A stretch of DNA of 26,966 nucleotides from a virus: positions 1 to 26,966 of the IMG/VR virus record IMGVR_UViG_3300025886_000127, one strand, 5' to 3'. A program made the translations under genes and the position numbers. This document shows positions 1 to 25,005 of this stretch, piece by piece; the first letter of the stretch is position 1; every line of letters starts with the position of its first letter. The notes under the pieces were generated by a model. It made no database searches, was not told the DNA's origin, and saw only the letters and a program-made list of their open reading frames with translations.

Positions 1-2
1 TT

Positions 3-275
3 ATTTTCTCGCATGCTGGGGATAGTAGTTTTGGTTTGGTTAATGATGTTAAGTTTATGTTTCGTTTGATGTCTACTATTAAAGAAATATTACAAAAGGA
101 ATTTTCTAGTAATATGCCTAATCTGTTAATTTACTCTCCTAATAAAAAAGGTAGTGAACAAATCGAGGATACTGGGCGACATAGGTTGTATACTGCGTTT
201 ATTAAAAAAGCATTCCCTGATGCCCGTGTATTCGTAGATGATCGTAGTGAAGAAATAATATTTAAATTAAAGTAG
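3..275 (+). CDS. Unidentified protein, C-terminal part (5' end outside window)
   Basis: The reading frame is open from the left edge to a TAG stop at 273-275. A TTG at 36 could be read as a start, but the frame continues upstream without a stop, so this is most likely the C-terminal 90 residues of a longer protein. The visible part is hydrophilic, probably alpha/beta, ends in a short strand (EEIIFKLK), and has no motif I recognise. Its Arg codons are mostly CGN, unlike the AGA-rich structural genes downstream. The stop is directly followed by the ATG of the lipoprotein gene at 276, so the two are probably co-transcribed. Function unknown. Confidence 0.6.
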   Translation: MFSHAGDSSFGLVNDVKFMFRLMSTIKEILQKEFSSNMPNLLIYSPNKKGSEQIEDTGRHRLYTAFIKKAFPDARVFVDDRSEEIIFKLK

Positions 276-566
276 ATGCGTATATCGGTTATTATAATGG
301 TTATATTGTGTATTACGTCGTGTAGTACCACATCAAACATGCAATGTGATGAGCTCTATGCTATAGATTATAACTGCGATATACCACAACGAAATTCATA
401 TGGTGTAGATAAGGATTATTATCCAAATGTTCAATCTATTTACTATTATCCTCGTTATACTCGCATTATTTACCCCACAACGCAACCTCTTCCCCATAGT
501 GAGCAAAAAACCGTAATATCTAAAAAGCGGCCTTCGATCGTAAGAACAACTCGTGGTAGCGAGTAA
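276..566 (+). CDS. Small putative lipoprotein
   Basis: This 96-aa protein begins with a positively charged residue, a hydrophobic stretch (residues 3-13) and a lipobox-like ITSC ending at Cys16, so it should be exported and lipid-modified. The mature part is about 80 residues, rich in Tyr and Pro (YYYPRYTRIIYP), with a basic tail. It lacks the acidic surface-export signal found after the Cys in many Bacteroidota surface lipoproteins, which suggests a periplasm-facing location. Small Pro-rich phage lipoproteins include outer-membrane spanins (Rz1-type), but no inner-membrane partner is visible, so that role is only a possibility. It starts on the base after the upstream stop. The signal peptide is seen; the function is not known. 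Confidence 0.6.
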   Translation: MRISVIIMVILCITSCSTTSNMQCDELYAIDYNCDIPQRNSYGVDKDYYPNVQSIYYYPRYTRIIYPTTQPLPHSEQKTVISKKRPSIVRTTRGSE

Positions 567-617
567 AGTATATACGTAGATAAAGAAACAGGGGAGGTAT
601 TGAGTTAGGTTTTTTGG

Positions 618-629
618 ATATTTATTAAT
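618..629 (+). promoter_or_regulatory. ATATTTATTAAT motif before the fibre module
   Basis: The motif directly abuts the ATG at 630, the first gene of the fibre module. It shares its ATATTTAT core with the motifs at 5812, 8252, 10703, 20740 and 20754. It could be a late-type promoter element or an A/T-rich translation leader. Because it touches the start codon, a T4-style start site about 6 nt downstream would fall inside the gene, so confidence is low. Confidence 0.25.
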
Positions 630-1034
630 ATGCCAACATCCTATACAAGATTACAATTAAGAAGTTTTCAAACCTCATCTGGGGATTTTCTTGGTTCTAC
701 TGCTTATACTTTTACTTTAGAAAATAATAATAATTCTACAGCTTACTTTGCTATAGAAGGAAATGAGTACTGGGGTGGTACCCGTTTTGTGTATAAGGAT
801 GTATTTCATTCGGCATCTTTTTCTTCTTTAACTAATTGTACAGTAGTTAGTGGTTCTACGAATGCTGCTTTTATAATTAATAAGAATGCTACTGCTACAT
901 TTACTTTTACTCCTACTGCTTTAATTGCTAAGGAACAGGTAAAATTTTCTGCACCTAATACTATTGTTTATAGTGTAGCAGACTTAACTGCTTCAGGTTC
1001 TTTATTGGGAGTAGATTTAGCAATTACCCCCTAA
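630..1034 (+). CDS. Putative tail-fibre/adhesin-module protein
   Basis: A 134-aa protein rich in Ser, Thr, Ala and aromatic residues, with alternating polar and hydrophobic stretches typical of a beta-sandwich. It has no signal peptide, membrane helix or coiled coil. I do not recognise a family. It opens a four-gene block (630-2810) that includes a clear fibre-like protein, and such composition and position suggest a virion surface component. Start chosen at the first ATG, which follows an A/T-rich leader and has no Shine-Dalgarno sequence. Arg codons are AGA/CGT mixed. Function is inferred from context only. Confidence 0.5.
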   Translation: MPTSYTRLQLRSFQTSSGDFLGSTAYTFTLENNNNSTAYFAIEGNEYWGGTRFVYKDVFHSASFSSLTNCTVVSGSTNAAFIINKNATATFTFTPTALIAKEQVKFSAPNTIVYSVADLTASGSLLGVDLAITP

Positions 1035-1063
1035 TTTCTTACAAAACCCCCATATGTATTAAT

Positions 1064-1357
1064 ATGATACCAGGAGTAAACGACCCAGGACCTTGGCAAT
1101 GGTACGTAAAGCGACCAGATAATAGAGGTTTATCTTTAATGGAAGTAAAACGAAAGTATATGCATGAGCAACTTTTGTTTGAAAATTACATAAGTACATT
1201 AAATACATTAAATACAGTAAGTACTGCTGCAGCAGGAGCTGCAGGTGGTCCTGCACCCGGAGGAGGTGGACCCGATATTACACCTGCAAAAGAAATTTTA
1301 ACTGAAAGTGGAGATGCCATTTTAGCAGAAAATGGTGATTTCTTAGTAACCGAATAA
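1064..1357 (+). CDS. Small Gly-rich virion-type protein
   Basis: A 97-aa protein in three parts. Residues 1-45 form a charged segment with a helix-prone stretch (LMEVKRKYMHEQLLFE). Residues 52-70 are an Ala/Gly/Pro linker (AAAGAAGG, GGGG). The end carries two copies of a short repeat (ILTESGD, then ILAENGDFLVTE) that I associate with small virion proteins of marine T4-like phages, from memory rather than a search. It lies between two fibre-module genes and is probably a virion or fibre-associated protein. The start follows a TATTAAT leader. Confidence 0.5.
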   Translation: MIPGVNDPGPWQWYVKRPDNRGLSLMEVKRKYMHEQLLFENYISTLNTLNTVSTAAAGAAGGPAPGGGGPDITPAKEILTESGDAILAENGDFLVTE

Positions 1358-1373
1358 AAAACAACATTAAAAA

Positions 1374-2510
1374 ATGGCAACTACAAAAATATCTGAATTA
1401 AACCCTCTAGCATCAGGAAGTACCTGTGCTGCTGCGGTGCTTCCTATTGTAAATGATGGGGTAACTGATAAAATTTCGATTAATAATTTAAGAGGAACCT
1501 TAAGAGGAGCTTCAAACCAAGGACCAGATAATGCAGCATTAAATGGAGGTATTAATAATGCTGCTTGTAGATTAGGAGATGGTGTTTTAGGAGGCCAAGC
1601 TAATACAGTAAATGCTAATTTTGCTGCCCGTACTTCTAATAGTAATACATACAATTATGATGGACCTGTTATAACTTCTCAAGGATCTTTATCTTCCATT
1701 ATTGGAGGATTAAAAAACGAGATATCTATAAACACGGCTAGTCTTTGTATGGCTTATGGTGGATACCCATTGTTACCTTCATTAATATTAAATAGTGTAG
1801 GCACATGTATTTCAGAATCAGCGAATAGTCCTTACCCTGGGTATTATCCTATTGTAGGAGGAAATATGATAATGGGGGCACATGGTACTAAAATTCTTGG
1901 TCCAACCGCAAATGGAAATTATAATATAGGTCTTAATAGTGTAATAGGGGGGTATTGCAATACTCTGGATTTTACAAATCAAGTAGCTGATCAAGCTTCT
2001 GCGAACTATGTAAATAGTATGATAAATTCTGTCAAATCAAATATTATTGGTATTTCAAGTGGAAGTTCAGCAGGGAGTTGGATGGCATATAATACTATAG
2101 TAGGAAGTTATGATTCAGATATAATAAATGGTCTTAATAATAGTGATGGATATTATAATTTAATAGGAAATAGCCGGCAAGCGATGATATTAGATTCGGG
2201 GGAGTCAACTATTCTGGGAACTGATTTAAATTCGTGCATCGAGAATTCATCTCATGCCACAATCATAGGTGCCCGAGGTGGTATCATTTCATCATCCAAT
2301 TACTCAGCAGTAATAGGAGGTACGAATGGTTGTGTATCAAATGTTAGTAAAGCTGTTGTACTTGGAGGAGAAAATATTACAGCATGTGTTGCAAATGCTG
2401 TACACTTACAACAGTTAGTATTTAAAACAGGAGTTGGTGGAATTCCCACATCTAATCCAGGTGTAACAGGTCAAGTTTGGAATGATGCCGGAACTTTAAA
2501 AATTTCCTAA
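1374..2510 (+). CDS. Tail-fibre/adhesin with YadA-head-like beta-roll repeats
   Basis: A 378-aa protein. Its N-terminus (MATTKISELNPLASGS, then LPIVNDGVTDKISINNL) matches the usual opening of phage fibre proteins that attach to the tail. From about residue 60 to 350 it carries degenerate repeats of 14-30 residues with a small-residue turn: SIIGGLKN, SVIGGYCN, NTIVGSYD, NLIGNS, TILGTDLN, TIIGARGG, AVIGGTNG, VVLGGEN. This resembles the left-handed beta-roll of trimeric adhesin heads (YadA/Hia type). The C-terminus (GQVWNDAGTLKIS) is typical of phage fibre ends. Eight Cys residues are unusual for such a protein, and most fall within repeats. Likely role is host-surface binding as a trimer. The repeat fold is an inference from pattern. 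Confidence 0.7.
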   Translation: MATTKISELNPLASGSTCAAAVLPIVNDGVTDKISINNLRGTLRGASNQGPDNAALNGGINNAACRLGDGVLGGQANTVNANFAARTSNSNTYNYDGPVITSQGSLSSIIGGLKNEISINTASLCMAYGGYPLLPSLILNSVGTCISESANSPYPGYYPIVGGNMIMGAHGTKILGPTANGNYNIGLNSVIGGYCNTLDFTNQVADQASANYVNSMINSVKSNIIGISSGSSAGSWMAYNTIVGSYDSDIINGLNNSDGYYNLIGNSRQAMILDSGESTILGTDLNSCIENSSHATIIGARGGIISSSNYSAVIGGTNGCVSNVSKAVVLGGENITACVANAVHLQQLVFKTGVGGIPTSNPGVTGQVWNDAGTLKIS

Positions 2511-2546
2511 AAATTAATAAAATATTAATAATTTAATAAATAAAAA

Positions 2547-2810
2547 ATGATAAAATTAAGATACCAAGGTGGGAATATAAAATTGGGGAGCAAAAGAGTA
2601 AACTCTTCTGAGGTTTCTGAGTGGGGGAATTTAAAAAATCATATCAATTCTTTAACTTCAGGGGGTGATCCTCTTATTTTTACACATATTTTAGAAGGAG
2701 AAAAAATAGTAGTTGCTAAAGGTAGTATGAGTAACAAACAAACTTTAGAATGGTCTAACTTAGATATTACTTTATGGAATGTTGTAAAAGCAGAAATTGA
2801 AGCTTTATAA
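2547..2810 (+). CDS. Small protein at end of fibre module
   Basis: An 87-aa soluble protein without recognised motifs, having mixed alpha/beta character, two WxNL-type segments (EWGNLKNH, EWSNLDIT) and a helical end. It follows the fibre gene after a 36-nt leader made only of A and T that holds three TTAATAA copies. Two similar halves around the EW-NL segments hint at an internal duplication. It may be a fibre accessory or chaperone, given its position just behind a fibre gene, but nothing in the sequence proves it. Its stop codon lies inside a 7-bp hairpin (2800-2816). Confidence 0.5.
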   Translation: MIKLRYQGGNIKLGSKRVNSSEVSEWGNLKNHINSLTSGGDPLIFTHILEGEKIVVAKGSMSNKQTLEWSNLDITLWNVVKAEIEAL

Positions 2811-2816
2811 AAGCTT
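2800..2816 (+). other. Inverted repeat over stop codon and promoter edge
   Basis: AAGCTTT, a 3-nt ATA loop, then AAAGCTT form a perfect 7-bp stem. It covers the stop of the 87-aa gene and the first bases of the TTG element at 2815. There is no U-run right after it, so it is a weak terminator at best; it could equally be an operator or chance. Confidence 0.3.
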
Positions 2817-2845
2817 GGAAATTTAAAAAGGTTTTATTATAATTA
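2815..2845 (+). promoter_or_regulatory. Host-type (Bacteroidota) promoter for glycosyltransferase/sulfotransferase
   Basis: TTG at 2815-2817, a 20-nt spacer, then TATAATTA at 2838-2845. This matches the Bacteroidota pattern TTG-N19/20-TAnnTTTG loosely at the second box. The ATG at 2851 is only 5 nt beyond it, the same geometry as at 26100-26136, which implies a leaderless or nearly leaderless transcript. Confidence 0.45.
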
Positions 2846-2850
2846 GTTAC

Positions 2851-3735
2851 ATGAAAAAAAAGTATTCAATTTTCCATATTGAGGGAGGTTTAGGTAAACA
2901 CATAATGGCTACAGCGGTAGCACAATGTATAAAAAATAATTACCCCGATAGGGAACTAATTATAGTTGCAGCTTACCCCGAAATTTTTTTAAATATAGAT
3001 TTTATAGATAAGGTGTATCGCATAGGCAATGCACCTTATTTTTATCAAGATTATATAGAAGGTAAAGATAGTCTTATTTTTAGAAATGAACCTTATTTTA
3101 CTACTGATTATATAAATCAAACATCTCATTTGATTGAAAGTTGGTGTAATCTTTTCCAACTTGAATATAAGGGAGAAGCTCCTCAATTAATTTTTAATAG
3201 ATCCCAAGAGTTAGAAGCTCTTAATTTTTGGAATAGAGATAAACCTATTATGGTTATCCAAACAAATGGGGGACCCCTAACACAAAATAATACTCATTCA
3301 TGGGTTAGAGATATACCTTATTTAATAGCTAATGAAATAACTCAATTATATAATAAAGATTATCATATTATACAAGTAACAAGAGATAATACCGCTATCC
3401 TTCCTGGGGTAGAGGTAGTAACTGAGGTTCCTTCAAGTATGATGTTTTTGTCTCTTTTAAAATTTTCTAAAAAAAGACTTCTTATAGATTCTAGCCTTCA
3501 ACATGCTTCTAAAGCTTTAAATTTAAAATCAACAGTTTTATGGGTAGGTAATTCTCCTGATACTTTAGGGTATGATCTTCATGACAATATAATAGCAAAT
3601 TTGCCTAGTAATATAAAGTTACCTGATTCTTATATGAGTAAGTATACTATTCACGGGGCACTTCATGAATGTCCCATAAAAGAAGAAGTTATTTTTGATA
3701 AAGAAAAAATTATTTCTTCTATAGAAAACCAATAA
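2851..3735 (+). CDS. GT9-like (heptosyltransferase-type) glycosyltransferase
   Basis: A 294-aa protein with GT-B features of the GT9 family, which moves sugars such as ADP-heptose onto lipopolysaccharide. The N-terminal Rossmann-like start has the glycine loop (EGGLGKHI, residues 11-18) after a first strand, then a helix and a second strand (LIIVAAYPE). The C-terminal half has the donor-site pattern LLIDSSLQHASKAL (210-223) followed by STVLWVGNSP and GYDLHDNI. At 294 aa it is slightly short for bacterial GT9 enzymes (about 320-350). No signal peptide or membrane segment, so cytoplasmic. It is followed 8 nt later by a sulfotransferase gene and preceded by its own host-type promoter. The acceptor may be a host envelope glycan or a virion protein; the donor sugar cannot be told. 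Confidence 0.7.
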   Translation: MKKKYSIFHIEGGLGKHIMATAVAQCIKNNYPDRELIIVAAYPEIFLNIDFIDKVYRIGNAPYFYQDYIEGKDSLIFRNEPYFTTDYINQTSHLIESWCNLFQLEYKGEAPQLIFNRSQELEALNFWNRDKPIMVIQTNGGPLTQNNTHSWVRDIPYLIANEITQLYNKDYHIIQVTRDNTAILPGVEVVTEVPSSMMFLSLLKFSKKRLLIDSSLQHASKALNLKSTVLWVGNSPDTLGYDLHDNIIANLPSNIKLPDSYMSKYTIHGALHECPIKEEVIFDKEKIISSIENQ

Positions 3736-3743
3736 ATTTTATC

Positions 3744-4559
3744 ATGAAAAAAATATTTTTTCAATCCTCTTTACCAAGAGCAGGATCAACCCTCCTCCAA
3801 AATGTTATGGGTCAAAACCCTAAATTTTACGTAACTCCCACATCAGGAGTACTTGAGTTAGTATATGGGGCTCGTAATCACTACACATCTTGTGATGAGT
3901 TTAAAGCCCAAGATGGGGAATTAATGAAAAAAGGGTTTCAAAATTTTTGCGCACAAGGTATAAATGGGTATTTTGATGCTATAACTGATAGACCTTATGT
4001 TTTAGATAAAAGTAGAGGGTGGGGTTATTATTATAATTTTTTAGATTTTATTTACCCTAATCCTAAAATAATATGTATGGTAAGGGATTTAAGGGATATT
4101 TTTGCTTCTATGGAAAAAATCTTTAGGAAAAATCCTGATATAGCTTCTGGTATGGAAGATAATTCAAACCTTAAAGGGATAACTACAGAAGAAAGAATAG
4201 ATATATGGTCATCGGCACCTCCTATAGGATTATCCTTAGAACGTTTATATCAAACTCTAAGTGAAAAAAATGATAAATACATACATTTTGTAAAATATGA
4301 AGATTTTACCCAACACCCCCAAAAAGAAATTAAAAAAATTTATAATTATTTAGAATTACCTTACTTTAAGCATGATTTTAATCATGTAAAACAAATTACC
4401 CAAGAAAACGATAGAATTCATGGAATATATGGGGATCACACTATCAAAAGTAAAATAAAATATGTTCCTAGTGATGCTCAAGAAGTTTTAGGTAAGGTAG
4501 CTTATAATTGGGTTAGAAATAACTACCAATGGTTCTATAATTATTTTGGATATGATTGA
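3744..4559 (+). CDS. PAPS-dependent sulfotransferase
   Basis: A 271-aa sulfotransferase, expected to move sulfate from PAPS to a hydroxyl on a sugar or other acceptor in the cytoplasm. The 5'-phosphosulfate loop is SLPRAGSTLL (residues 9-18). The 3'-phosphate-binding segment is MVRDLRDIFAS (111-121), with Arg113 and Ser121 in the expected places. VLDKSRGW (85-92) and the C-terminal KYEDFTQHP are also family features. Length is normal. The gene follows the glycosyltransferase by 8 nt and should share its promoter at 2815. Codon use (mostly AGA for Arg) matches the phage structural genes, so there is no sign of very recent transfer. The acceptor is unknown. Confidence 0.85.
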   Translation: MKKIFFQSSLPRAGSTLLQNVMGQNPKFYVTPTSGVLELVYGARNHYTSCDEFKAQDGELMKKGFQNFCAQGINGYFDAITDRPYVLDKSRGWGYYYNFLDFIYPNPKIICMVRDLRDIFASMEKIFRKNPDIASGMEDNSNLKGITTEERIDIWSSAPPIGLSLERLYQTLSEKNDKYIHFVKYEDFTQHPQKEIKKIYNYLELPYFKHDFNHVKQITQENDRIHGIYGDHTIKSKIKYVPSDAQEVLGKVAYNWVRNNYQWFYNYFGYD

Positions 4560-4565
4560 GAGGAC

Positions 4566-4587
4566 GTCATATTAAAGTCATATTAAA
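4566..4587 (+). repeat. Perfect 11-bp tandem repeat upstream of a promoter
   Basis: GTCATATTAAA occurs twice head to tail (4566-4576 and 4577-4587), two bases before the TTG element at 4590. One copy per helical turn right upstream of a promoter is the arrangement of an activator site or an UP-like element. No protein that binds it can be named. Confidence 0.6.
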
Positions 4588-4589
4588 AT

Positions 4590-4620
4590 TTGGCTCCACC
4601 GGAGATCGTTCGTATATTTA
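4590..4620 (+). promoter_or_regulatory. Host-type (Bacteroidota) promoter for the DUF932 gene
   Basis: TTG at 4590-4592, a 20-nt spacer (4593-4612), then TATATTTA at 4613-4620, close to TAnnTTTG. The spacer holds a short inverted repeat (CTCC-ACC-GGAG). Transcription would start near 4626-4628, giving a leader of about 40 nt before the ATG at 4670. This is the longest gene-free stretch in the window. Confidence 0.55.
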
Positions 4621-4669
4621 CGGGGTAAGGTTGCGAGCGAGTCAAGACCGATTATTTAAATTTTTAGTT

Positions 4670-5506
4670 ATGAGTGATTTAATGTTTTCAGCGACTGTAA
4701 AAGATGTTCAATTCTTGAACGACGAGCAGATTAAAGAGGTTTGCCCAGTTGCATTTTCTGAGAGTGCTAGTAGTGAAGTTTCAAAGCACTACACACACAT
4801 TCCAACCAATCAAGTAATTGATGATATGCGTAAGCTAGGTTGGGGGGTTATTGAAGCGAAACAAGTTGCTGCTCGTAAAACAGCAACAGCAGGTTTCCAA
4901 AAACACATGATGATTTTCCGCCACCCAGATTTGATGGTTGAAGGAAAAGATGGTGATAATGTTTGGCCTCAAATCATCATGACTAATTCCCATGATGGTA
5001 AAAATTCATTTACGTTCCAAGCCGGAATGTATCGATTTGTTTGTTCAAATGGATTGGTGATTGCCGATGAAGAATTCGGTTCAATGAAAATCCGTCACAT
5101 GGGTTATGATTTTAATACTTTGCGTGAAACTATTGGTGAGATGGTTGATAAATTGCCTCTTACAGTTGATAGTATGAATAAATTTAAAGCCACTACACTT
5201 GATAAAAATCAAAAGTATGATTTGGCTCGTAAAGCACTTGAGACACGATTTAAAGTTCAAGAAAACCAGAAGGTTGACCAGCTTTATAAGATTGATCTTG
5301 ATGAGTTTCTTACCCCAGTGCGTAAGGAAGATGCAGGAGATGATTTGTGGAGTGTATTTAACCTCGTACAAGAGCGTGTAGTTACAGGAGATTTTGATTA
5401 CGTTTCCGGTGCTAAAATGCGTAAAGCTCGTGAGATTAAGAACTTTAAGCAGGATTTGAAAGTAAACCAAGAGCTCTTTGAGGTAGCAAAAGAATTTGCA
5501 GCATAA
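4670..5506 (+). CDS. DUF932 family protein
   Basis: A 278-aa protein from the ATG at 4670. The frame can be read from 4556, but those 38 residues cover the promoter and tandem repeat, so the internal ATG behind an A/T-rich leader is the better start. Family features include HYTHIPTNQVIDDM, the basic KHMMIFRHPD, and the signature TFQAGMYRFVCSNGLVIADE (about residues 115-134). DUF932 proteins are common in phages and plasmids; their role is not established. The gene is a stand-alone unit with its own promoter and the terminator at 5529. All 12 Arg codons I counted are CGN, whereas flanking phage genes mostly use AGA, pointing to high early expression or separate origin. Confidence 0.75.
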   Translation: MSDLMFSATVKDVQFLNDEQIKEVCPVAFSESASSEVSKHYTHIPTNQVIDDMRKLGWGVIEAKQVAARKTATAGFQKHMMIFRHPDLMVEGKDGDNVWPQIIMTNSHDGKNSFTFQAGMYRFVCSNGLVIADEEFGSMKIRHMGYDFNTLRETIGEMVDKLPLTVDSMNKFKATTLDKNQKYDLARKALETRFKVQENQKVDQLYKIDLDEFLTPVRKEDAGDDLWSVFNLVQERVVTGDFDYVSGAKMRKAREIKNFKQDLKVNQELFEVAKEFAA

Positions 5507-5528
5507 GAGCAATGCCATGTTGATTGGA

Positions 5529-5558
5529 GGGGGAGGATGTTAACCTCCCCCTACTTTT
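5529..5558 (+). terminator. Rho-independent terminator after the DUF932 gene
   Basis: GGGGGAGG (5529-5536) pairs perfectly with CCTCCCCC (5544-5551) around a 7-nt loop, followed after TAC by TTTTAATTTAATTTT. It is by far the most G/C-rich hairpin between genes here and isolates the DUF932 unit from the next genes. Confidence 0.85.
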
Positions 5559-5574
5559 AATTTAATTTTACTAA

Positions 5575-5763
5575 ATGTCTAAAAATACAAATCCATATAC
5601 AATGAAAACAGAAGATGTAGTTCAAATGGTTCTATCTAAAGCTGATGATTATGAGCTAAGAAATGAAGTAAGAGCGGAGGCAATGGCTATTTTAAAAGAA
5701 AATCCTAACATAGATACTGGGTCCGCATATTTAATGGCTGCTATAGAATGGGATGTCGCATGA
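5575..5763 (+). CDS. Small acidic helical protein
   Basis: A 62-aa protein, acidic and mostly helical (TEDVVQMVLSKADDYELRNEVRAEAM, shown here by its key residues V-V-M-V-L and E-L-R), ending in SAYLMAAIEWDVA. No signal peptide or membrane helix. I do not recognise a family. Its short length and helical end loosely recall phage transcription cofactors, but it lacks the hydrophobic C-terminal clamp-binding motif of T4 gp33, so I do not assign it. It lies just downstream of the terminator at 5529 and overlaps a tiny 26-codon frame by 4 nt. Confidence 0.5.
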   Translation: MSKNTNPYTMKTEDVVQMVLSKADDYELRNEVRAEAMAILKENPNIDTGSAYLMAAIEWDVA

Positions 5764-5840
5764 AAAATTATTGGGTTTATAACACTACTATAGGAGATCT
5801 TGAGATCGACTATATTTATAACCGTAATGGACATAAATAA
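5760..5840 (+). CDS. Possible 26-aa micro-ORF bridging two genes
   Basis: An ATG overlaps the upstream stop (ATGA) and the frame runs 26 codons (starting MKNYWVYNTTIGDLEIDY) to a TAA that lies 14 nt inside the gene starting at 5827. Overlaps at both ends match the tight packing of neighbouring genes, and could couple translation from 5575 to 5827. The peptide is short and has no known features, so it may be chance. Confidence 0.25.
   Translation: MKNYWVYNTTIGDLEIDYIYNRNGHK
5812..5824 (+). promoter_or_regulatory. ATATTTATAACCG motif (late-promoter-like)
   Basis: It carries TATAACCG, similar to the T4 late element TATAAATA, two bases before the ATG at 5827, and shares the ATATTTATAA core with 8252, 10703, 20740 and 20754. 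There is no TTG at 19-20 nt upstream, so it does not fit the host-type promoter. It may instead be a translation leader. Confidence 0.3.
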
Positions 5841-6255
5841 AATATTTGGTGCTTTTGATTCTGAAAAGGATGATAATGGATTTCCTATTCCTAAGTTTAT
5901 AAAGGATATAGAAGAAAATCACCCTAAATATTATTTAGGTATGTTTAAAAAATTAATAAACAACCACCTTAGCTACCAAAAAGGATTAATCCAAATATTC
6001 CAGTCAGCTGATCCTAAATTAGATATGGAAGATATTAAAGCTGCTGGGGAGAATATGTTATATAATAAAGCTTGGGAGTATATTAAAAATTATGACTTAG
6101 AGGATGAATATTCTCAAAAAGCTTTATCAAAAGGAAAATCAGTTGAATTAGAACATGCGTTTGTATCTGCTATAGTTTACTTTGAAAATCAGGAAGAATA
6201 TGAAAAGTGTGCTTTTCTTAAAAAATTCCTTGATTTTTTAGATTCCATTTCGTAA
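5827..6255 (+). CDS. Helical protein with UVR-like C-terminal hairpin
   Basis: A 142-aa soluble helical protein. A TTG at 5800 is in frame, but the ATG at 5827 follows the ATATTTATAA motif and is the better start. Residues 90-142 contain SAIVYFENQEEYEKCAFLKKFLDFL, which resembles the UVR helical hairpin pattern (hydrophobic-acidic-YE-A-LK) of UvrB and ClpC-type proteins; this is a pattern similarity, not a firm domain call. The N-terminal half (KIFGAFDSEKDDNGFPIPKFI) is likely extended. It begins the run of small genes before the HD-domain gene. Function unknown. Confidence 0.55.
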   Translation: MDINKIFGAFDSEKDDNGFPIPKFIKDIEENHPKYYLGMFKKLINNHLSYQKGLIQIFQSADPKLDMEDIKAAGENMLYNKAWEYIKNYDLEDEYSQKALSKGKSVELEHAFVSAIVYFENQEEYEKCAFLKKFLDFLDSIS

Positions 6256-6260
6256 CTTAA
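6230..6260 (+). promoter_or_regulatory. Weak host-type promoter candidate
   Basis: TTG at 6230-6232, a 20-nt spacer ending in TTCG as at 4590, then TAACTTAA at 6253-6260. The second box is a poorer match than the others. It would serve the 64-aa, HD, membrane and gp55 genes beginning at 6279. Confidence 0.25.
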
Positions 6261-6278
6261 AATTAAATTTATATAAAA

Positions 6279-6473
6279 ATGTATTTTAGAGACCACATCA
6301 CCAAAAAACTCGAACATATCGAGGCAAAATTGAAGCACATCGAATTCCACACTGTACGAGGGAATAAAGATGAGATTATTAAGATTAAAGAACAGTGTGA
6401 AGATTTAGTTGAGGAGATTCAAGCATCGATTCAACGTGAACCAATGACTCCTAACGAACAAAACCGAGTATAA
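6279..6473 (+). CDS. Small coiled-coil protein
   Basis: A 64-aa charged protein. Residues 8-55 form a near-continuous amphipathic helix with heptad spacing (LEHIEAKLKHIE, then IIKIKEQCEDLVEEI), so it probably makes a coiled-coil dimer or helical hairpin. It ends in a polar tail (MTPNEQNRV). Its stop overlaps the next ATG by one base (TAATG), so it is probably translated with the HD-domain gene. Three of four Arg codons are CGN. No family recognised. Confidence 0.55.
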   Translation: MYFRDHITKKLEHIEAKLKHIEFHTVRGNKDEIIKIKEQCEDLVEEIQASIQREPMTPNEQNRV

Positions 6474-23487: not shown

Positions 23488-25005
23488 ATGGCAAAAAAAC
23501 TACAAAATATATTTGATCCAAGTATTGATGAAGTAGAACAAAATTTTACTATCAATTCATGGCATGTTTCTCAATCAGTAGATGCTTTAACATCTGTTGA
23601 TGATTATGATATTTCTATAAGTGGTAGTTTATCAGTAACAGGAAGTACTTTCCTTTCAGGAAGTACTATTATATCAGGAACCTTAGATACAGTAACTAGT
23701 GGTAGTATAAATCATACCGGAAGTATTTCTCATACAGGTAGTTTAGAGTTAATAGGAGGAATTGAAAGTATCACTACGGGAAGTATAATAAATACAGGAA
23801 GTGTTGCTTTATCTGGAAGTTTAGACTTAGATGGTATTCCTGATAAGACTTTAGGGGCATTTGATGTATTAGTAATAGATTCTAGTGGGGATGTAGGATA
23901 TAGTACCACAGTACAAGGTACTTCAGGCTCATCAGGTACTAGTGGCACATCAGGTTCAAGTGGTACCTCAGGGTCATCTGGTACTTCGGGTTCAAGTGGT
24001 ACTTCGGGTTCAAGTGGTACTTCGGGTTCTTCAGGTACTTCGGGTTCTTCAGGTACTTCAGGTTCTAGTAGTACATCAGGTTCTAGTGGCACTTCAGGAG
24101 AATCTATTACAGGCCCTCAAGGTAATAATGGTTCTTCAGGTACTTCGGGTTCTTCAGGTACTTCGGGTTCTTCAGGTACTTCGGGTTCTTCAGGTACTTC
24201 AGGTTCTTCAGGAGGAGATGGTAGTTGGAATTATATTGTCCCTAATCCTGCTACTGATTTAAAATTTGGATTAAACAACGCACATGATAATTACCAAGTC
24301 TCAGGAGTAAGTTCAGGTACTTCTACACCCCCTGTACCTGCTAATAATGGGGATGTTACTTTTAATGGGGGTGGAAGTACACCTACTAAATTTAGTATAT
24401 ACCATTTTAATTCATTGGGAAATGATCTTAGTTGGCAGTGGCAGGATTATTTAGAAAATGCTTCTCTTGATTTTTTTTGGAATGGTAATTTTGAAATTGT
24501 TGGTGCTACTATTGATAATGTTGTTGTTGATACTTTAAATAATTACACAACATTTACTATTTCTGGGGGGACATTTAGTGGAACTATAAACTCAGGAGAT
24601 AGTACTTCATTACAGACTACTATTAATTATTATATATATACTTTAGAAGAAGGATATAATAAAATAGATATAGAAGATGTAACACAATTCCCATATCCTC
24701 TAGATGAGGCTTTTTTTATATTTAAATTCCCAAATACTCTTACTAATACAAGTAAATCAGGAAATCAAATAGTAGTTGATATTAGGTATAGTAGCCCTGA
24801 AGGGAGTATTATAACCTTGAGATATTTTAGAAGAGCAAACCAATCAGTTTCAGTTGCTACTACTATTAAAGGAGCATCAGATCCTCAATCAGCAATTAGT
24901 TTATCAGATGGTAATTTTTATGTAGGTAATTTTATGATGTGGTATAGAAATTTTGGTACTAGAGGATTAATTCAACTAGGATCTGAAAATGTAACTACAG
25001 GTTAA
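23488..25005 (+). CDS. Collagen-like tail fibre
   Basis: A 505-aa fibre protein in four parts. Residues 1-40 are a probable attachment segment. Residues 45-115 are short Ser/Gly/Thr repeats (SGSLSVTGSTFLSGS, INHTGSISHTGSLEL) suggestive of a beta-stacked shaft. Residues 144-206 and 209-244 are Gly-X-Y triplets, nearly all GTS or GSS, which should form a collagen-like triple helix without the usual prolines. Residues 245-505 are a globular domain (SWNYIVPNPATDLKFG, YNKIDIEDVTQFPYP, MMWYRNFGTRG) that could be the tip or receptor-binding head. One Gly is replaced by Ser in the first block. It ends the structural operon before two nuclease genes. Confidence 0.75.
   Translation: MAKKLQNIFDPSIDEVEQNFTINSWHVSQSVDALTSVDDYDISISGSLSVTGSTFLSGSTIISGTLDTVTSGSINHTGSISHTGSLELIGGIESITTGSIINTGSVALSGSLDLDGIPDKTLGAFDVLVIDSSGDVGYSTTVQGTSGSSGTSGTSGSSGTSGSSGTSGSSGTSGSSGTSGSSGTSGSSGTSGSSSTSGSSGTSGESITGPQGNNGSSGTSGSSGTSGSSGTSGSSGTSGSSGGDGSWNYIVPNPATDLKFGLNNAHDNYQVSGVSSGTSTPPVPANNGDVTFNGGGSTPTKFSIYHFNSLGNDLSWQWQDYLENASLDFFWNGNFEIVGATIDNVVVDTLNNYTTFTISGGTFSGTINSGDSTSLQTTINYYIYTLEEGYNKIDIEDVTQFPYPLDEAFFIFKFPNTLTNTSKSGNQIVVDIRYSSPEGSIITLRYFRRANQSVSVATTIKGASDPQSAISLSDGNFYVGNFMMWYRNFGTRGLIQLGSENVTTG
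23917..24219 (+). repeat. 18-nt DNA repeat coding Gly-Ser-Ser-Gly-Thr-Ser triplets
   Basis: Two blocks of Gly-X-Y codons (23917-24105 and 24112-24219) are separated by an insertion of two residues that resets the register. In the second block an 18-nt unit (GGTTCTTCAGGTACTTCG) is repeated almost without change, whereas the start of the first block has drifted in its third codon positions. The uniform copies suggest recent expansion by slippage or recombination. Confidence 0.9.

Follow-up and report, generated by a model that had tools for sequence, protein, structure and literature searches.

We find that a glycosyltransferase gene (GT) and a PAPS-type sulfotransferase gene (ST), adjacent in an aquatic phage, a 26,966-base virus record that was analysed whole (the window), belong to a widespread cassette, and that in the window's lineage the pair has been gained or lost together with the beta-roll fibre gene at 1374–2510. 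On balance, we favour the reading that the two genes form a fibre-modification module that would decorate the phage's own fibre with a sulfated sugar. What sulfotransferases do in phage genomes is called unclear (PMC10580990) and phage cysC is read as a sulfur assimilation gene that can out-transcribe host genes (PMC10914622). Among open-licence papers, we found no description of the cassette. The features of the region are, in window coordinates:

630–1034, plus strand: small fibre-like gene (fib630), left flank; stays when the block is absent
1035–4561, plus strand: insertion unit of fibre genes, small gene, GT and ST; missing as a block from the relative L476
1064–1357, plus strand: 97-aa fibre-associated protein (fib1064); part of the block, seen only where the block is present
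1374–2510, plus strand: beta-roll (head-repeat) adhesin-like fibre (fib1374) with head-repeat motifs; proposed sugar acceptor
2547–2810, plus strand: 87-aa protein between fibre and GT; no Pfam or PHROG match, homologue in L003
2815–2843, plus strand: sigma-70-like promoter match TTGGAA-17-TATAAT; chance level, not conserved, unsupported as functional
2851–3735, plus strand: GT9-fold glycosyltransferase (GT), 294 aa; invariant GGxGK and DSxxQH motifs
3744–4559, plus strand: PAPS-type sulfotransferase (ST), 271 aa; Sulfotransfer_3, PHROG 27463 (unknown function)
4562–4669, plus strand: conserved intergenic stretch, right boundary of the block; precedes DUF932
4670–5506, plus strand: DUF932 protein, right flank; common to relatives with and without the block

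The GT and ST ORFs are both intact and lie on the same strand with a stop-to-start gap of 8 nt, as an earlier sequence-only reading had described, and the motif pairs it named are present (GGLGKHI and LLIDSSLQHAS in GT, PRAGSTLL and RDLRDIFAS in ST). Its match of arginine codons to the structural genes also holds: AGA/AGG make up 84% of arginine codons in GT and ST, a figure drawn from 19 arginine codons only, compared with 90% in the structural genes and 43% in the DUF932-side genes. The pair had further been placed directly after four fibre-module genes. Fibre genes do lie upstream at 630–2510, but the 87-aa ORF intervenes, and its status as a fibre-module gene is unsupported; searches of Pfam and PHROG with this ORF gave no match, and L489 has an 88-aa ORF at the equivalent position. 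The proposed separate host-type promoter is unsupported. Its putative −10 element (TATAAT) would end 7 nt ahead of the GT ATG, promoter-like sites number 42 in the window against 38.6 ± 6.1 in shuffled sequence, and the match was sought in the closest relatives and is not retained there. Given this chance-level frequency and lack of conservation, we reject a functional promoter at 2815–2843.

Evidence for a joint history of fibre and enzymes comes from relatives gathered around the fib630–DUF932 junction, which, being contigs of one lineage, are not independent samples. The relative L476 aligns to window positions 1–1034 and 4562–6299 with 4 nt between the two parts; because it joins the equivalents of 1034 and 4562, the stretch 1035–4561 is a clean presence/absence unit that holds both the fibre genes and the enzymes. 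In nine lineage contigs in which fib630 is followed by DUF932, no match to fib1064, fib1374, GT or ST was found upstream, and three of the nine have one small ORF of 83–99 aa in that gap. All GT-bearing contigs that span the site (the window, L002, L003, L004, L489 and L163) also have a fib1374-type gene. L163 has fibre and GT but no ST, with the right boundary unchanged, and ST therefore resembles an accessory to a GT tied to the fibre. The conserved intergenic stretch at the boundary (about 108 bp) looks like a shared regulatory element. It has an exact core at 4610–4635, TCGTATATTTACGGGGTAAGG, which is identical in several relatives and occurs twice in L476 (61–81 and 4993–5013).

The fibre fib1374 carries four [I/V]GGxxN head-repeat motifs, and its relatives match the LbR_Ice_bind beta-roll and UspA1 repeats. 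Elsewhere in the window, 23488–25005 encodes a collagen-like, Ser/Thr-rich (GTSGSS)n fibre (PF01391), which is another possible glycan acceptor. Among isolates, the window's baseplate and DUF932 proteins are closest to those of Flavobacterium phage vB_FspM_immuto (approximately 45% identity), so a Bacteroidota host is likely. The block is absent from this cultured phage. Upstream of DUF932, immuto has a glycan island of approximately 11 kb (MW353175, 49172–59988) that differs from, and is larger than, that of the window and contains glycosyltransferases, WecE and WcaG homologues and a 'pilin glycosylation' protein; the region upstream of DUF932 may hence be a glycan and host-interaction region.

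Searches of viral contigs gave more than 500 relatives each for GT and ST. The two are adjacent (within 60 bp) in 75 of 119 non-redundant viral loci, 67 in the order GT-ST and eight in the order ST-GT, with an intergenic distance mostly of −3 to +10 nt and a more distant ST used in 16 of the 75. The possibility that related phages never have the genes linked is thus excluded, and most relatives have the linked pair. Distances among the GTs correlate with those among the STs (Mantel r 0.585; 0 of 2,000 permutations). Fibres related to fib1374 are found in 97 of 138 loci under loose single-linkage clustering, and head-repeat fibre ORFs are enriched approximately five-fold upstream compared with downstream of the cassette (59/478 vs 15/591, p 3e-10). 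In the single-particle/cell virus genome AG-345-L05, GT is embedded in an array where large fibre genes alternate with genes for 2OG oxygenases, two additional sulfotransferases and further glycosyltransferases; immediately after GT comes a carbamoyltransferase. In L213 (2012–5533), a contig binned to an archaeon but probably viral, the GT domain starts a 1,173-aa protein that follows a fibre with a Peptidase_S74 chaperone domain. No isolated phage was found with the full pair; given that GT occurs in one isolate record only and ST in ten, there is no cultured model that has both.

Structure prediction and profile searches, which the sequence-only reading had proposed as checks, place ST above its Pfam cut-off and the GT model closest to GT9, but leave the window's GT protein without a Pfam match of its own; it also has no NCBIfam name. 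The AlphaFold model of GT (pLDDT 92) has a GT-B fold nearest to GT9 structures (best matches 3tov, WaaF, TibC and WaaC; top hits 3tov, 1psw, 4rb4 and 4rap, 6dfe). Weak Glyco_transf_9 matches occur in 11 of 35 GT homologues (best E 0.0016), whereas the window protein has none. When profiles are aligned with E. coli WaaC and WaaF, the DSSLQH of GT pairs with the GT9 motif DxGLxH. The position of the catalytic WaaC Asp13 is occupied by Lys16, invariant across the GT family alignment, although this profile alignment is weak (probability 47%). By fold, GT would work like a GT9 enzyme, yet it lacks two marks of the family, the above-cut-off Glyco_transf_9 match and the aspartate, and its activity and donor may differ from those of GT9 because of the invariant lysine. 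The same lysine could be read as a sign that GT and ST are inactive or domesticated remnants. We give this hardly any credence, as both are long intact ORFs and 27 columns of the GT family alignment and 34 of the ST alignment are invariant, PAPS-binding residues included.

The classical substrate of GT9 enzymes is the LPS core, and with WaaF and WaaC among the best fold matches, the pair might place a sulfated sugar on host lipopolysaccharide or capsule during infection and so change the receptor, for superinfection exclusion or progeny release. In other phages, sulfation genes do share islands with glycosyltransferases, epimerases and aminotransferases of a kind usual for envelope glycans. 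We nevertheless consider a host-surface target rather unlikely, given that the pair is lost or gained with a fibre gene and is strongly placed just 3′ of fibres, where a purely host-directed enzyme need not be. Hence, of the two targets of the sequence-only reading, host surface and phage fibres, we favour the fibres, because the insertion unit joins fibre and enzymes and because contexts elsewhere are rich in fibres. Fibre adjacency is no proof that the fibre is the acceptor, given that any host-range genes naturally neighbour fibres.

ST scores 73.4 bits against Pfam Sulfotransfer_3 (cut-off 27; E 4e-20) and has both the 5′-phosphosulfate loop PRxGxT and the 3′-phosphate site R..S. Its PAPS-binding residues P11, R12, G14, T16, R114, D115 and S122 are invariant in 23 aligned sequences. 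Structures that the ST model (pLDDT 91) matches include tyrosylprotein and heparan sulfotransferases, and the nearest solved structures are the tyrosylprotein sulfotransferases TPST1/2. This closeness raises the alternative of two separate protein modifications, in which ST acts on the fibre protein itself (sulfating tyrosine, for example) and GT adds an unrelated sugar. It is improbable in our view: the catalytic residues Glu99 and Arg101 of TPST (TPST2 numbering) align with Thr33 and Gly35 of ST, each shared by at least 90% of the family, and the sole NCBIfam match of ST is the Nod-factor (sugar) sulfotransferase NoeE, at 30 bits against an equivalog cut-off of 500. Based on these two observations, a sugar acceptor is more likely than tyrosine. 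In L042 (1321–2823), the ORF containing ST is approximately 500 aa long, and ST therefore seems fused to a second domain.

Members of an APS kinase cluster lie near the pair in 49 of 138 loci, mostly directly downstream, the cluster being made up among these loci of APS kinase (36), HxGH adenylyltransferase (30) and DUF2061 (29). The APS kinases (CysC) of linked loci have a profile match and the DGD...R motifs; a tested short phage APS kinase scores below the NCBIfam cut-off, whereas those of L107 and L203 score above it. Across whole records, APS kinase is present in 28 of 50 large GT/ST records. The 45 control records comprise 35 of the window's lineage and 10 cyanophage-like ones, and two of the 45 hold GT, both with ST; in the 43 without GT, no APS kinase above the cut-off was found where 8.5 would be expected at the same per-base rate (P 0.0002), an association rather than proof because the controls are shorter and from other lineages. 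In the window's own lineage, no APS kinase was found in the contigs examined, all of which are partial. The linked adenylyltransferase matches NMN adenylyltransferases only, and ATP sulfurylase by homology is rejected. That it forms APS is therefore a guess from context, namely its adjacency to APS kinase and its fusion to a full APS kinase in phage L107. Together, the APS kinase, adenylyltransferase and DUF2061 beside the pair are likely a PAPS supply.

An APS-kinase-centred sample of 60 non-redundant loci leads us to reject a universal tie of phage APS kinases to the pair: ST is present within the flanks of 15 and GT within those of 18, and in the other loci APS kinase stands beside other glycosyltransferases, other ST-like genes, carbamoyltransferases or fibres. 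Many glycan islands of marine phages (L242–L301; for example L284, 6001–9033) lack the GT/ST pair but contain a module in which a short APS kinase is joined by an NMNAT-like adenylyltransferase, DUF2061 and, in many cases, a small HAD phosphatase; its neighbours there are carbamoyltransferase-like genes, sugar epimerases and further ST-like genes. Metabolic cargo for sulfur assimilation, or a small molecule, lipid or DNA as acceptor, is a further explanation. Passages of PMC10914622 and PMC9529941 assign phage cysC to assimilatory sulfate reduction, and phage glycosyltransferases can modify DNA (cited in PMC12619734). We hold it to be very improbable, since a sulfotransferase uses up PAPS without producing reduced sulfur, no DNA-modification genes were seen beside the pair in the window, and the gene context is one of fibres.

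The pathway of GT plus PAPS-sulfotransferase put forward by the sequence-only reading is thus, its own promoter apart, well supported by the folds, the invariant PAPS-binding residues, the adjacency across dozens of unrelated contexts and the linked APS kinases. For the window's phage, we infer the acceptor, the sugar, the order of steps and the source of PAPS as follows. GT and ST would be a two-step modification pathway belonging to the adjoining fibre gene. GT would first glycosylate the new fibre protein in the cytoplasm of the infected cell, as TibC, a GT9 protein heptosyltransferase, does with its target, a bacterial adhesin protein. ST would then move sulfate from PAPS to that sugar, giving charged, sulfated fibres, with the host as supplier of PAPS; in other phages, the supplier would be the phage-encoded APS kinase and adenylyltransferase module. 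A transmembrane-like stretch was sought in GT and ST and found in neither. Many unrelated phages have the pair, in a good number of cases accompanied by activated-sulfate genes, and a fibre coat of sulfated sugars is therefore suggested.

In Bacteroidota genomes, GT and ST follow directly after beta-roll-like proteins and after proteins that combine NHL repeats with T9SS sorting domains, and GT is single, in tandem or adjoined by an FkbM methyltransferase. Some of these loci lie near CysD or a DUF2061-APS kinase, and some may be phage-derived; L204, which has CysD nearby, has neighbours that look like ordinary chromosomal genes. DUF2061 is fused to a full APS kinase near GT/ST on Bacteroidota chromosomes (L203, 2091–2975; L199, 10095–10991), which suggests a part for DUF2061 in activating or transporting sulfate.

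If the fibre reading is true, the job of phage sulfotransferases becomes testable, and part of phage cysC may serve sulfation instead of sulfur assimilation. A fibre-linked cassette, in many phages with a likely PAPS supply, gives both genes a concrete role in sulfated fibre glycans, which could change adsorption, stability or recognition, and it also predicts which fibre bears the modification. More tentatively, it is possible that a common modular sulfation system of aquatic phages (fibre, GT and ST, optionally joined by a compact PAPS-making module of NMNAT-like adenylyltransferase, short APS kinase and DUF2061) dresses fibres with sulfated sugars, and that a good part of phage cysC belongs there rather than to sulfur assimilation.

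Compared with known systems, GT has its best fold matches in the GT9 heptosyltransferases (WaaC/WaaF, the Veillonella GT9 and TibC; E down to 3e-11, TM approximately 0.6) and has a DSxxQH-type motif that lines up with their DxGLxH, but it differs in its 10–15% identity, its missing Pfam match and its invariant lysine. ST has the PRxGST and RDxR..S PAPS-binding motifs and the fold of Sulfotransfer_3, TPST and NoeE sulfotransferases, but it is without the TPST Glu and Arg, and its NoeE score falls very far short of the equivalog cut-off. APS kinase and Sulfotransfer_3 genes are known as auxiliary genes of aquatic phages (PMC10914622, PMC9529941, PMC10580990), whose passages on them treat cysC as sulfur assimilation and draw no link to GT or fibres. 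In mycobacteriophage virion glycosylation (Freeman 2023, as cited in PMC12619734), phage glycosyltransferases likewise decorate virion proteins; the targets there are capsid and tail tube, with no sulfotransferase mentioned in that passage of PMC12619734, whereas the system described here, read from its genes, is linked to fibres and includes a sulfotransferase.
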